A DNA stretch of 36,107 nucleotides from Candidatus Portnoybacteria bacterium RBG_13_40_8. GTDB taxonomy: Bacteria; Patescibacteriota; Minisyncoccia; RBG-13-40-8-A. The notes beneath the pieces were generated by a model, which was given only the letters and a program-made list of their open reading frames with translations, was not told where the DNA came from and searched no databases. The stretch spans positions 1-36,107 of the forward strand of contig MHMT01000030.1 in the NCBI GenBank assembly GCA_001819435.1, given 5' to 3'. Positions within the stretch are counted from its first letter, which is position 1; every line of letters starts with the position of its first letter. Positions 13,228 through 26,292 of the stretch are shown here, one piece after another. Position numbers and translations under genes: made by a program.

Positions 13228-14217
13228 TTAAAACTGATTAAGAAAATGTAAATCGCTCGAATAGAGCAATCTGATATCATTTATTTTGTACTTAAGCATA
13301 GCAATTCTGTCTATGCCGATACCAAAAGCAAACCCCTGCCAATTACCTGGTACATAACCGACCGATTTAAAAACATTTGGGTGAACCATGCCTGCACCCA
13401 TAATTTCCAACCAATCACTTGAAAGATATTTCATCTCTATATCAAAGCCCGGTTCAACAAAAGGATAATAACTTGGCCTCATTCTTGTTTCTATTTCCTC
13501 GCCAAATAGTTTTTTAAGAAATTCCTCGACGACTGCTTTAAAATTGGCAATGCTAATGTGGGTATCAACCATTAGACCCTCTAATTGATAGAAGTTATAA
13601 AAATGAGAAGCGTCAGTAGACTCATAACGAAAAACTCTGCCTGGAACAATAATTCTAAAAGGCGGGTTATTTTTTTCCATAAATCTAACCTGCATCGGAC
13701 TGGTATGGGTTCTTAATAATAATCTTTGTGGTTTAGTTTTCAGCCAAAAAGTATCCCAAGCATCACGAGCAGGATGATCTTGAGGAATATTTAGAGCATC
13801 AAAATTATAATATTCGGTCTCGATATCTGGTCCCTCGATAATTCTGAACCCCATTGATTGAAAAATGTCCTCTATTTTTCTCATTATATGAGTTAAAGGA
13901 TGGAGATGGCCATGGACAATTCTTATTCCAGGAGCAGTGATATCTATTTTTTTTTCTCTTTCTTTCGTTTTTGTCTCTTGTTTAATAAGCTGACTTTTTA
14001 AGTTCTCTATTTTTGATTCTATTTCTTTTTTAAATTGATTAGCCTCTGTTCCCAGTTTTTTTCTTTTCGCTATGGATAAATCTTTCAATGATTTCAGGAC
14101 AAAGGTTATCTCCCCCTTTCTGCCCAAATATTTAATTCTGAATTGCTCTAATTCGGCCAAATCTTTTACTTTGGTTAAATCGATAAATATTCTCTTTTTT
14201 AAATCTCCGATGTCCAT
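13228..14217 (-). CDS. pheS: Phenylalanyl-tRNA synthetase alpha subunit
   Basis: 'HPLTHIMRKIEDIFQSMGFRI', 'HPARDAWDTFWL', 'RTHTSPMQVRFM', 'GIGIDRIAMLKY'. Confidence 0.97.
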   Translation of the reverse strand: MDIGDLKKRIFIDLTKVKDLAELEQFRIKYLGRKGEITFVLKSLKDLSIAKRKKLGTEANQFKKEIESKIENLKSQLIKQETKTKEREKKIDITAPGIRIVHGHLHPLTHIMRKIEDIFQSMGFRIIEGPDIETEYYNFDALNIPQDHPARDAWDTFWLKTKPQRLLLRTHTSPMQVRFMEKNNPPFRIIVPGRVFRYESTDASHFYNFYQLEGLMVDTHISIANFKAVVEEFLKKLFGEEIETRMRPSYYPFVEPGFDIEMKYLSSDWLEIMGAGMVHPNVFKSVGYVPGNWQGFAFGIGIDRIAMLKYKINDIRLLYSSDLHFLNQF

Positions 14218-14354
14218 GCCCCGTATTAGATTTTCGACATTTTTAATGTCGAAATTATTAAATTAACAGTTATCTTAATATTTTTATCCCTGATTATGCC
14301 CCGCGCTTTTTTGTCCCGCAGCTGCGGGACAGTCGAAAATTCAGTACGGGGCAT
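14216..14354 (-). repeat. Structured element copy 1 (139 bp, 23-bp terminal inverted repeats, two internal hairpins), ends on the pheS start codon
   Basis: Terminal arms ATGCCCCGTATTAGATTTTCGAC / GTCGAAAATTCAGTACGGGGCAT (20/23 complementary); inner perfect palindrome TGTCCCGCAGCTGCGGGACA (14312-14331); hairpin TTCGACAT-TTTTA-ATGTCGAA (14233-14253). Second copy at 24642-24782. Confidence 0.9.
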
Positions 14355-14357
14355 AAT

Positions 14358-14717: not shown

Positions 14718-15422
14718 TTAAAATTCAAACTCCTTTTTCATAACCTCCATTTGCTTCAGTCGCATTGACATTTTGTATTTATTTTTCAATTCTCTTCCCA
14801 TGGCAAATGCTTCACTGAATAGTTCTTCGGATTTCCGAGAATCTTCTTTTTTAATTGCTAAAGCTAACCAAGAAATTACACCGGATTCTAAAATCAATCT
14901 GTGAAAATGGCGGAGATTTTTGTCTTTTCGAATGAGATTTAAAGATTTTAGGAGAACATTTTTTGCTTTTTTCTCTTTATTCGCTAAAACTAATCCTTTT
15001 CCATAATGGCCCAAATATTCACCATAGCCAGCATTTTTTGGAGTTCCCTTTAACGATCTCACTGCCCAAAGATACCATTTAACCGATTCTTTAAAATTTT
15101 TCTCCTCAGTCAAAACGTCACCCATTCTCAATTGAAAAACCGCCAAATAGCGAGGAGGTAGTTTTTTTAGCTTGGAAATCCCTAATCCCAATTCTACATC
15201 AGCTCGCATTAATTCTAAAAATCCTTTGTCTTTGGTCTCCCACCAAAAATGCTTGTCAATAACAATCTTGTGCCCCAATGCTTCTATAAAATTCGCCCAG
15301 AGATTATGTTTACCACTAACCAACATTGCTTCATCAAAACAGGCCAAAGCTGTCTTATAATCTTTCTTTTCTCTGGCAATTTCTCCTTTTGTTATTAAGT
15401 TTTTAAATTCGCTTTTTTGCAT
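14718..15422 (-). CDS. Hypothetical helical-repeat (TPR-like) protein
   Basis: Repeated amphipathic helices such as 'IAREKKDYKTALACFDEAMLV'. Confidence 0.6.
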   Translation of the reverse strand: MQKSEFKNLITKGEIAREKKDYKTALACFDEAMLVSGKHNLWANFIEALGHKIVIDKHFWWETKDKGFLELMRADVELGLGISKLKKLPPRYLAVFQLRMGDVLTEEKNFKESVKWYLWAVRSLKGTPKNAGYGEYLGHYGKGLVLANKEKKAKNVLLKSLNLIRKDKNLRHFHRLILESGVISWLALAIKKEDSRKSEELFSEAFAMGRELKNKYKMSMRLKQMEVMKKEFEF

Positions 15423-15684
15423 CTTCTCCTCTTTTTAGATATTTATTTAACATTTTTCTAATGGTTCTAATTCCCCAACCACTTTTTAAATATTCTTCTC
15501 TATGTTTTGCATCTATTCTATTTAAAAAGGCTTCATAAAAAATAAGCTTATAGGGTCTAAATGGTTTTGTTGCTAAACTTTCTCCGGAATTATGCTGTTT
15601 AAATCTTTTTCTTAAATCCGTGGTATAACCAATATACAAGTTATTGTCTTTTTGACTGCCAAGAATATAAACGTAATAAAACAT
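15403..15684 (-). CDS. GIY-YIG nuclease family protein (small YhbQ/UvrC-N type)
   Basis: 'YYVYILGSQKDNNLYIGYTTDLRKRFKQHNSG' GIY-YIG signature; 93 aa. Confidence 0.92.
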   Translation of the reverse strand: MFYYVYILGSQKDNNLYIGYTTDLRKRFKQHNSGESLATKPFRPYKLIFYEAFLNRIDAKHREEYLKSGWGIRTIRKMLNKYLKRGEDAKKRI

Positions 15685-23884: not shown

Positions 23885-24643
23885 TCAATATTTGAATGTT
23901 GCATCTGATATTATTTCCTTATCAAATTCTTCGCAGCCAAGAGCAAAAAAACGAATATGGGTCTGAATATCGGCTCCATTTATAAAATCTAAAGGCTTAT
24001 CTTCGTTATTGAAACATTCGTTATTCTTTATATTTCTACACTTCAACTCTAAGGTAATTTCGTATTCCAAAGCTGCGGCTTTGGTATATGGATATAAATC
24101 TCCGAGAGGATAATCAAGTTCAATCAACATGTATTCATCTCCGCCCAAATTAATCTCTTTCTCGTAACCATTAACCGTTAAAAACATTTTTGAAACATAA
24201 GAAGCTTCTAATGGATAAATTAAATCGTCTCTCCTTTCGCTTAATTTGTCGCTTAAAAAATAAAGCCATAATTTTTTTATATCAAAAACAAGACGCTCCG
24301 GGGCATCGATTCTATATTTTCCCAGGCTGATTTTGGTCGAACTACCGTCTTTTTTAATCTCCCAAACCGAATCAGCTGGTTTTAATTCCTTGCCCTCAAG
24401 ATGCTGAGGCCCGGCACAGCCATAGCCCAGATTGACATCAAGCTCCTTTTCCCGGCTTGGATTTTCTGAAGGAAGAACCGGTTGGGGCTCGTATTCTGAA
24501 ATCTGTTCTTCTTCACTTGGCCCTGGTTCTATTTTTGGTTTATTTTTATAATCTAAATAAATAAAAATACCGGCAACAATAATTGCCAGAAAAATCGGAA
24601 TAAGAAGCTGCCATTTTGACTTATTTCTAATATGCTCTTCCAT
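23885..24643 (-). CDS. Hypothetical membrane-anchored extracytoplasmic protein
   Basis: TM 'WQLLIPIFLAIIVAGIFIYLDY' after MEEHIRNKSK; ATG at 24643 is used rather than the GTG at 24652. Confidence 0.7.
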   Translation of the reverse strand: MEEHIRNKSKWQLLIPIFLAIIVAGIFIYLDYKNKPKIEPGPSEEEQISEYEPQPVLPSENPSREKELDVNLGYGCAGPQHLEGKELKPADSVWEIKKDGSSTKISLGKYRIDAPERLVFDIKKLWLYFLSDKLSERRDDLIYPLEASYVSKMFLTVNGYEKEINLGGDEYMLIELDYPLGDLYPYTKAAALEYEITLELKCRNIKNNECFNNEDKPLDFINGADIQTHIRFFALGCEEFDKEIISDATFKY

Positions 24644-24782
24644 ACCCCACACTAGATTTTCGACATTTAAATATCGAAATTATACAAATAAATAATTATT
24701 ATAATGGTTTATTTCTCGATTGTACCCCGCGCTTTTTTGATCCGACCGCAGTCGGATCAGTCGAAAATTCAGTACGGGGCAT
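24642..24782 (-). repeat. Structured element copy 2 (141 bp), ends on the start codon of the 23885-24643 gene
   Basis: Arms ATACCCCACACTAGATTTTCGAC / GTCGAAAATTCAGTACGGGGCAT; right arm identical to copy 1; inner hairpin TGATCCGAC-CGCA-GTCGGATCA. Confidence 0.9.
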
Positions 24783-24876
24783 ATCTAAAAATTTTATCCT
24801 ATTTTTATTGTTCTGTCTATAATCTAATTTTTCTGTTTATTTTATTTTGTTTTTATTTTGTCCTATAATTAAAAAT

Positions 24877-26226
24877 ATGTTTAAATTTATTTCCAAGAAA
24901 AACAAAAAAAGGAAAACAGGACAAAATAAAAAATATCTAATTATAATAGCTATCTTGGTTGCTATTTTGGTCATCGCTGGGGCTACGGCCGGCTATTTTG
25001 TTTTCAGGCGTGATCAAAAGCCAGAAGAAGTTCAAATAGAAAAAAATATTTACGAAGAATTTCTGTCAGAGATATATGACAAAATCCAAGAAAATTACTG
25101 GAATAAAATAAGCGACGAAGAATTGGCTACCCTCTTTAGATTGGGGCTTGAAAAACTAACCAACGCCCCCCAGTCCCTTAAATCAAATGATAAAAGCGGG
25201 ATGATAGAAACAACCAACAAAATTATTGATAAATTGGAAGAAAATAAGAAAAAAGATTTTACGGCTCAACTTGCCCACCTTGTTCTTTGGAATCTTAAAC
25301 CCTTTGGGCGAAGCGCTCTTTATGTTAAAAAAGATGAAGAAAATTTAAAAAACAGAGTTATGAATATTAATCCCCAAGAAAATTTATATTCGGTCTTGGG
25401 AGTCGAAGACAATGCTAATCAAGAAAAATTAAATGAAGCCTACAGAAACAAAGTTAATGAATTGGATAATCAGGAAACCGAGGAGGCCAAACAAGAATTG
25501 GAAAAAGTTAAATATGCCTATGAAGTATTATCGAATGCCGAAAACAAAAAAAGATATGACGAAACCAAGACCGAACCCACTGTATTCGGGAAATTAATCA
25601 GACCAACAATTCTCCATTTATATATATCAAAAATATCGCCCACCATTCTCGAAGACCTAAAAAGAGAGACCGAAAAATTCGACAACACAGGAGGACTTAA
25701 TACTTTAATTTTAGATTTAAGGGCAAACGTTGGCGGTTCGCTGGATATCTTGCCCTACTTATTGGGACCGTTTATTGGACCAAATAACTATGCTTTTGAA
25801 CTCTTCCAACAAGCAAACTACGAACCATTTAAAACAAAACTTGGCTGGTTGCCAAGCCTGGTTAGATATAAAAAAGTAGTAATTCTGGCTGACGAAAAAA
25901 CCCAGTCCTCTGCCGAAGTAATGGTTGCCAGCCTCAAAAAATATAATGTGGGAGTATTTGTTGGCACAAAAACAAAGGGCTGGGGAACCATAGAAAAAGT
26001 ATACGAGATTGATCATCAAATTGATGAAAGTGAAAAATATTCAATTTTTCTGGTTAATCACCTTACCCTAAGAGACGATAATCAACCCATAGAAGAAGCT
26101 GGGGTTGAACCGGTAATCGATATAAATGACCCAGAATGGGAAAATAAACTTTTTGAATACTTCAATTCTAATGAATTGGTTAAAGCCGTAAAAGAAGCCT
26201 GGAATAGTTCGCCCGGAAAAATTTAG
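24877..26226 (+). CDS. Membrane-anchored S41-like (C-terminal processing) peptidase with an internal J-domain-like segment
   Basis: TM, then 'NLYSVLGVEDNANQEKLNEAYRNKV...KYAYEVLSNAENKKRYDE', then S41-like 'LILDLRANVGGSLD', 'KTQSSAEVMVASLKKY', 'VGTKTKGWGTIEK'. Confidence 0.8.
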   Translation: MFKFISKKNKKRKTGQNKKYLIIIAILVAILVIAGATAGYFVFRRDQKPEEVQIEKNIYEEFLSEIYDKIQENYWNKISDEELATLFRLGLEKLTNAPQSLKSNDKSGMIETTNKIIDKLEENKKKDFTAQLAHLVLWNLKPFGRSALYVKKDEENLKNRVMNINPQENLYSVLGVEDNANQEKLNEAYRNKVNELDNQETEEAKQELEKVKYAYEVLSNAENKKRYDETKTEPTVFGKLIRPTILHLYISKISPTILEDLKRETEKFDNTGGLNTLILDLRANVGGSLDILPYLLGPFIGPNNYAFELFQQANYEPFKTKLGWLPSLVRYKKVVILADEKTQSSAEVMVASLKKYNVGVFVGTKTKGWGTIEKVYEIDHQIDESEKYSIFLVNHLTLRDDNQPIEEAGVEPVIDINDPEWENKLFEYFNSNELVKAVKEAWNSSPGKI

Positions 26227-26244
26227 TATCGTTTTCAAATAAAA

Positions 26245-26274
26245 CAAAAAACGGCCTCCGGAGGCCGTTTTTTG
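26245..26274. terminator. Bidirectional terminator between convergent genes
   Basis: 30-bp perfect palindrome CAAAAAACGGCCTCCGGAGGCCGTTTTTTG. Confidence 0.9.
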
Positions 26275-26292
26275 TTTTTAATCAAGAAAGTT

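Follow-up and report, generated by a model that had tools for sequence, protein, structure and literature searches.

Upstream of pheS in Candidatus Portnoybacteria bacterium RBG_13_40_8 lies a structured element of about 140 bp whose 3' end forms the start codon of the gene, which raises the question whether this element is a regulatory leader or a mobile element. The original prediction, made from the 36,107-nucleotide stretch analysed here (the window; contig MHMT01000030.1), allowed for a switch-like 5' leader or a co-opted MITE-type insertion, in either case controlling the gene run pheS, pheT, gyrB, secE, nusG, and rplK; the identity of these six genes was confirmed by Pfam. All sequences quoted in its favour were retrieved on the minus strand at 14216-14354, namely a 23-nt 5' block, the palindrome TGTCCCGCAGCTGCGGGACA, an internal GCGCGGGGCATAAT, the hairpin TTCGACAT..ATGTCGAA, and an end at the pheS ATG (Table 1), and both alternative pairings of the 5' block exist on paper. 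The evidence given below indicates that the pheS feature is probably MITE-like, a non-autonomous member of a family of GIY-YIG-encoded mobile elements whose insertion sites are translation start codons.

Table 1. Coordinates of the elements, their parts, and their target genes in the window, and loci of the second family. TIR, terminal inverted repeat; TSD, target-site duplication.
Feature	Position	Strand
Mobile element copy 1 (CCCCGTAC...TACGGGG), 133 bp, at the pheS start codon	14219..14351	-
TATG, 5' TSD copy of copy 1, former pheS start-codon site	14352..14355	-
CATG (one base off TATG), 3' TSD copy of copy 1, holding the present pheS ATG (14217-14215)	14215..14218	-
TIR of copy 1, 5' arm CCCCGTACTGAATTTTCGAC	14332..14351	-
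TIR of copy 1, 3' arm GTCGAAAATCTAATACGGGG	14219..14238	-
Internal palindrome TGTCCCGCAGCTGCGGGACA, perfect; sequence varies among copies with paired changes	14312..14331	-
Second hairpin TTCGACAT..ATGTCGAA, overlapping the 3' arm	14233..14253	-
pheS, target gene of copy 1, 329 aa	13228..14217	-
Mobile element copy 2, 135 bp, at the start codon of ORF 23885-24643	24645..24779	-
TATG, 5' TSD copy of copy 2	24780..24783	-
TATG, 3' TSD copy of copy 2, holding the ATG (24643-24641)	24641..24644	-
Target gene of copy 2, 252 aa, without Pfam match	23885..24643	-
GIY-YIG nuclease gene, 51% identical to the nuclease of full-length elements elsewhere	15403..15684	-
Second-family loci listed, own genome	L204, L210, L213, L215, L218, L219	

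Two copies had been counted originally. The second one is indeed present in the window, although the number is too low, as the genome (646 kb of 690 kb covered) contains eight copies of this first family, six of them strong (DNA search) and two diverged (repeat-end pattern), besides seven copies of a second family. The right end of all eight first-family copies forms a start codon, that of pheS, rpoD (sigma-70), rpsL, a gene for a jag/R3H protein, a glycosyltransferase gene, rsmI (MAKLYIIATPIGNL), an ORF without Pfam match, and one more ORF; for rpsL and pheS, the start after the element agrees with what the protein family predicts. Similarly, 27 out of 28 copies in the sister genus (G001, 312 kb; contig-end fragments and nested copies left out) are located at start codons. 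These copies fall into size classes of about 70-100 bp and about 131-143 bp, plus a single copy of 295 bp, and their target genes, judged by their N-termini, presumably include ligA, rpmA, rpsT, trpS, alaS, nusG, yebC, and hrcA. An inverted-repeat scan that was blind to sequence and position retrieved 33 pairs in 958 kb, most of them being these elements, and revealed the second family in the own genome (about 136 bp, ends CCCGGTGCTACAACTTTGAT and ATCGAAGTTGTAGCACCGGG), with all seven copies at start codons. Hence, copies are not scattered at random positions and orientations, as had been envisaged for a passive MITE; their placement is strikingly non-random, nearly always at start codons. The hrcA gene and a phosphatase-like gene are recurrent targets, hit in both genera by different element families. 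Elsewhere (G004:C31 and C83; L116 and L117), the same GTG start codon is occupied by an element in two related genes that resemble glycosyltransferase genes (TSD TGGA).

Several lines of evidence point to insertion. The flanks are duplicated, with TATG on both sides in most copies and a TSD of 4, sometimes 5 bp. Variants are TGAA or TGGA where the present start codon is GTG, the terminal G of the element replacing the A of ATG, as well as ATGA at alaS and TATGA at rpoD. In the latter case, the left TATGA provides the upstream ORF with its TGA stop codon and the right TATGA provides the rpoD ATG. Orthologues in the other genus, including pheS and nusG, start at the same codon without an element. 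Empty sites were also found at the DNA level, the joined flanks of filled sites corresponding to the site of the other genus for thpR, rpmA, ligA, holB, and others, with all alignments scoring above 200 shuffles. In addition, G001 contains a nested case, in which a copy is interrupted by a second copy with duplication of CGGGG, while an intact sibling shows the unoccupied site. The mobility of the element is thus well supported by empty sites, a nested insertion, and target duplication. With its TIRs, its shortness, and its lack of coding capacity, together with a 4-bp TSD, empty orthologous sites, and many copies, the element is a MITE-type insertion, as one branch of the original prediction held. 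An IS200/IS605 or REP/RAYT element was ruled out, as the flanks are true co-varying duplications and TIRs are present.

Regarding secondary structure, a folding energy of -49 kcal/mol was obtained for 14216-14354 on the minus strand (z = -7.1), a value that none of 200 shuffles reached. In this fold, the terminal repeats pair with each other and the pheS ATG is buried in the stem; copy 2 folds alike (z = -5.6). This terminal pairing is predicted to hide the pheS start codon if the transcript begins upstream. The first-family TIRs are 20 bp long, the consensus layout with TSD being TATG-CCCCG...CGGGG-TATG. Their left and right arms co-vary among copies (e.g., TTTCCGAC with GTCGGAAA and TTTTTGAC with GTCAAAAA), almost every copy retains a G.T / A.C mismatch at positions 10-11 of the arms, and paired changes also occur in the internal hairpin. 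The co-varying arms are evidence that the two ends act together; as a sequence pattern, their co-variation would fit end recognition by a single enzyme and RNA folding equally, and it provides no evidence for a switch. A cis-regulatory RNA switch, be it a riboswitch or a translational leader, for pheS and the other genes could account for the very stable fold hiding the start codon, the paired changes in the hairpin, and the constant position at start codons. It is nonetheless extremely improbable, given the TSDs and the empty orthologous sites, among which that of pheS in the sister genus, the unrelated nature of the downstream genes, and the absence of the internal partner for the alternative pairing from copies of about 70 bp in equivalent positions. 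An Rfam search of the window retrieved tRNAs only, the element being without covariance-model match; a riboswitch, T-box, or other conserved cis-regulator was rejected on this ground, as well as on the lack of conservation before orthologues and on the TSDs and empty sites. The window further contains a perfect 38-bp palindrome (AAAACAAAAAACGGCCTCC/GGAGGCCGTTTTTTGTTTT) at 26241-26278, just past an ORF ending at 26226, which looks like a two-way terminator.

The preference for start codons may reflect either targeting or selection. By a generous count across both genomes, about 46% of the noncoding TATG sites could serve as start codons, whereas 35 of 36 first-family copies are located at starts (hand-calculated binomial probability of about 3e-11). 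A -10-like box occurs 5-9 nt upstream of the old start in 18 of 35 genes with an element, compared with 24-30% of all genes, and Shine-Dalgarno-like motifs before the old starts are at background level, without enrichment. Because of this close -10-like box and the background level of Shine-Dalgarno motifs, many targets look like leaderless genes, whose start codon would coincide with the transcription start. The rpoD site, in what looks like an operon, suggests a role for the start codon independent of a promoter. Genome-wide, in both the own genome and G001, the -10-like box is most frequent 6-8 nt upstream of start codons and Shine-Dalgarno motifs are at background; the lineage seems to use many leaderless mRNAs. 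Placement at start codons is well supported, and its best explanation is target choice (or site selection) rather than regulation; part of the bias could arise because, in a very compact genome, insertions elsewhere are selected against.

Alternatively, the mobile element may have been co-opted as a promoter or leader, its insertion at position +1 of leaderless genes altering transcription or making translation dependent on reinitiation. Besides the -10-like boxes before the old ATG, it speaks for this idea that in each of the 36 listed copies a short ORF beginning at the old ATG terminates within the element and that other prokaryotic MITEs carry promoters (PMC10969869). At pheS, the ORF from the old ATG comprises 42 codons, with its stop codon starting 11 nt ahead of the pheS ATG; judging from this reading frame, the old ATG may serve as a translation start and the corresponding peptide be made. 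However, a promoter scan of element copy 1 revealed nothing above chance, Shine-Dalgarno motifs are not enriched, in ORF-less copies the stop codon of the upstream ORF lies anywhere between 11 and 142 nt from the new start, and the insertions are not conserved between genera, making such co-option very unlikely. Translational coupling as a general rule was rejected too, since the upstream ORFs all end within the element but at scattered distances. An effect of the element on pheS expression is possible, whereas regulation is not claimed.

A scan of the GTDB genome collection for an exact pattern retrieved related copies in other Patescibacteria. Copies with TSD CTTG, TCAA, or TTTA are mostly located away from start codons, so that specificity varies. 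Relatives of 63-79 bp with these TSDs (L102, L107, L096, L103, L104, and L095), not at starts, occur in Nealson-, Wolfe-, Wildermuth-, and other Parcubacteria.

Larger relatives carry a gene. A relative of 316 bp (L101) contains a complete GIY-YIG ORF of about 90 aa and the 295-bp copy of G001 contains a decayed one. The domain assignment is already clear from sequence evidence, as the full-length relatives match PF01541 (E 1e-16), with conserved Y, G, R, H, and E and almost invariant family residues. A search of the Patescibacteria with the L101 protein yielded 85 GIY-YIG loci, 47 of which have the gene enclosed by inverted repeats (score of at least 11), compared with 1.2% of shuffled flanks. 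These repeat-bounded spans are mostly 265-330 bp long and harbour one gene of about 90 aa and nothing else. Their right ends lie at a start codon, i.e., within a few bases of an ATG or GTG that opens an ORF of 80 aa or more, in 27 of 47 cases, compared with 8.9% at random positions and one of 47 left ends (other strand), and GIY-YIG copies with different ends share this placement. Furthermore, the repeat type clusters on the nuclease tree, which rests on 84 columns: 16 changes are required, whereas shuffled labels require 32, and none of 200 shuffles came as low. In G110, G161, G163, and G082, GIY-YIG copies are accompanied by ORF-less copies of about 100-145 bp with matching ends, and G001 likewise holds both kinds of copy with matching ends; pheS is targeted again in G161. 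The search pattern for the first three genomes contained ATG, so that their numbers are no evidence for placement; in G082, retrieved with an end pattern without ATG, five of six copies are located at starts and two of six carry GIY-YIG. Two GIY-YIG elements with GCCCCTCAC ends (L171:2049 and L190:2117) adjoin tRNA 5' ends. Repeats were not detectable at 38 of the 85 loci, including both of the own genome, and a GIY-YIG copy with the exact ends of the first family was not found in the 646 kb of 690 kb covered. The two GIY-YIG genes of the own genome (Table 1 and G000:C27:4737) share one repeat-less clade, and the one in the window was rejected as a full-length element on account of this clade and its lack of terminal repeats. 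The latter gene lies directly downstream of three tRNAs and overlaps, with its 3' end, the beginning of a gene for a TPR protein (14718-15422).

A mechanism of transfer may be proposed as follows. Most likely, the GIY-YIG nuclease acts in cis or in trans by recognising the paired ends and cutting the target in a staggered manner. Insertion duplicates four, sometimes five, bases holding the start codon, usually TATG but also TGAA, TGGA, ATGA, or TATGA. The old start codon remains on the left side of the element and its right end creates a new one, leaving the protein unchanged and, where the target is a stop/start overlap, the upstream gene as well. That GIY-YIG is the mobilising enzyme is suggested by its being the only gene found between matching ends (in many lineages, and non-exhaustively as to transposases), by the association of nuclease clade and repeat type, and by the invariant residues; the transfer steps are likewise putative. 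GIY-YIG enzymes cut DNA and are not known to perform strand transfer or end joining, which is why the joining step may be left to host repair.

On balance, we lean towards the wider reading that these elements form a phylum-wide class of minimal transposon-like elements of about 300 bp, consisting of one GIY-YIG nuclease, TIRs, and a 4-bp TSD, which use the start codon (in some clades the tRNA 5' end) as a safe site and spawn shorter, non-autonomous copies at the starts of essential genes. It is rather unlikely that the element is an ordinary MITE, moved in trans by a DDE transposase, with GIY-YIG as a passenger and the start-codon sites as survivors of selection. TIRs with a 4-bp TSD are a classic DDE signature, these genomes are about 90% coding, and copies elsewhere are found away from starts, all of which would agree with such a MITE. 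Yet the nuclease is the sole gene found inside the ends in many lineages and the repeat type tracks its clade, starts make up about half of the noncoding TATG sites but the other half is almost never occupied, and GIY-YIG copies with other ends show the same placement.

A GIY-YIG element inserting at start codons differs from the known systems that it resembles. Rickettsia palindromic elements are small and palindromic, occur in compact genomes, and sit inside reading frames while sparing function; here, insertion takes place at the start codon and not within the frame. GIY-YIG homing endonucleases (I-TevI type and the free-standing T4 Seg proteins) spread by homing, i.e., copying into one cognate allele via recombination, without terminal repeats or TSD. 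The present elements would be alike in being a small selfish, self-spreading nuclease gene, but have TIRs, a 4-bp TSD, and dozens of target genes instead of one cognate site. Penelope-like retroelements share the GIY-YIG domain, used there for integration, whereas the elements described here measure only about 300 bp and lack a reverse transcriptase. Closest in form are the prokaryotic MITEs of the Correia/NEMIS type (PMC10969869), which share a length of about 100-150 bp, TIRs, a TSD, copies immediately upstream of genes, and a strong RNA fold. Here, in contrast, the duplicated target holds the start codon and the full-length relative is a GIY-YIG element of about 300 bp rather than a DDE-transposase insertion sequence; the text of that MITE review mentions neither 'GIY-YIG' nor 'start codon' (PMC10969869). 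In rRNA genes of the same phylum (CPR), GIY-YIG ORFs were reported only in non-intron (not group I/II) insertions, judged to be outside the spread by homing (PMC11270868); the sites reported are in rRNA, and these findings fit the GIY-YIG element reading. A literature search of open-access papers retrieved no bacterial GIY-YIG element with terminal repeats and TSD, and an earlier description of a start-codon-inserting one was not found there.

If true, this would add another GIY-YIG way of life to homing and restriction, bearing on the question raised in a 2006 survey of the superfamily whether further members are molecular parasites (PMC1564403), and the elements would be among the smallest self-encoded mobile elements. 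Their target rule, a start codon that is duplicated, would allow a parasite to live in genomes almost without spare DNA. An explanation would also follow for those GIY-YIG insertions in CPR rRNA genes that are not introns. Some structured 5' leaders of Patescibacteria would then be recent insertions, not to be read as riboswitches.
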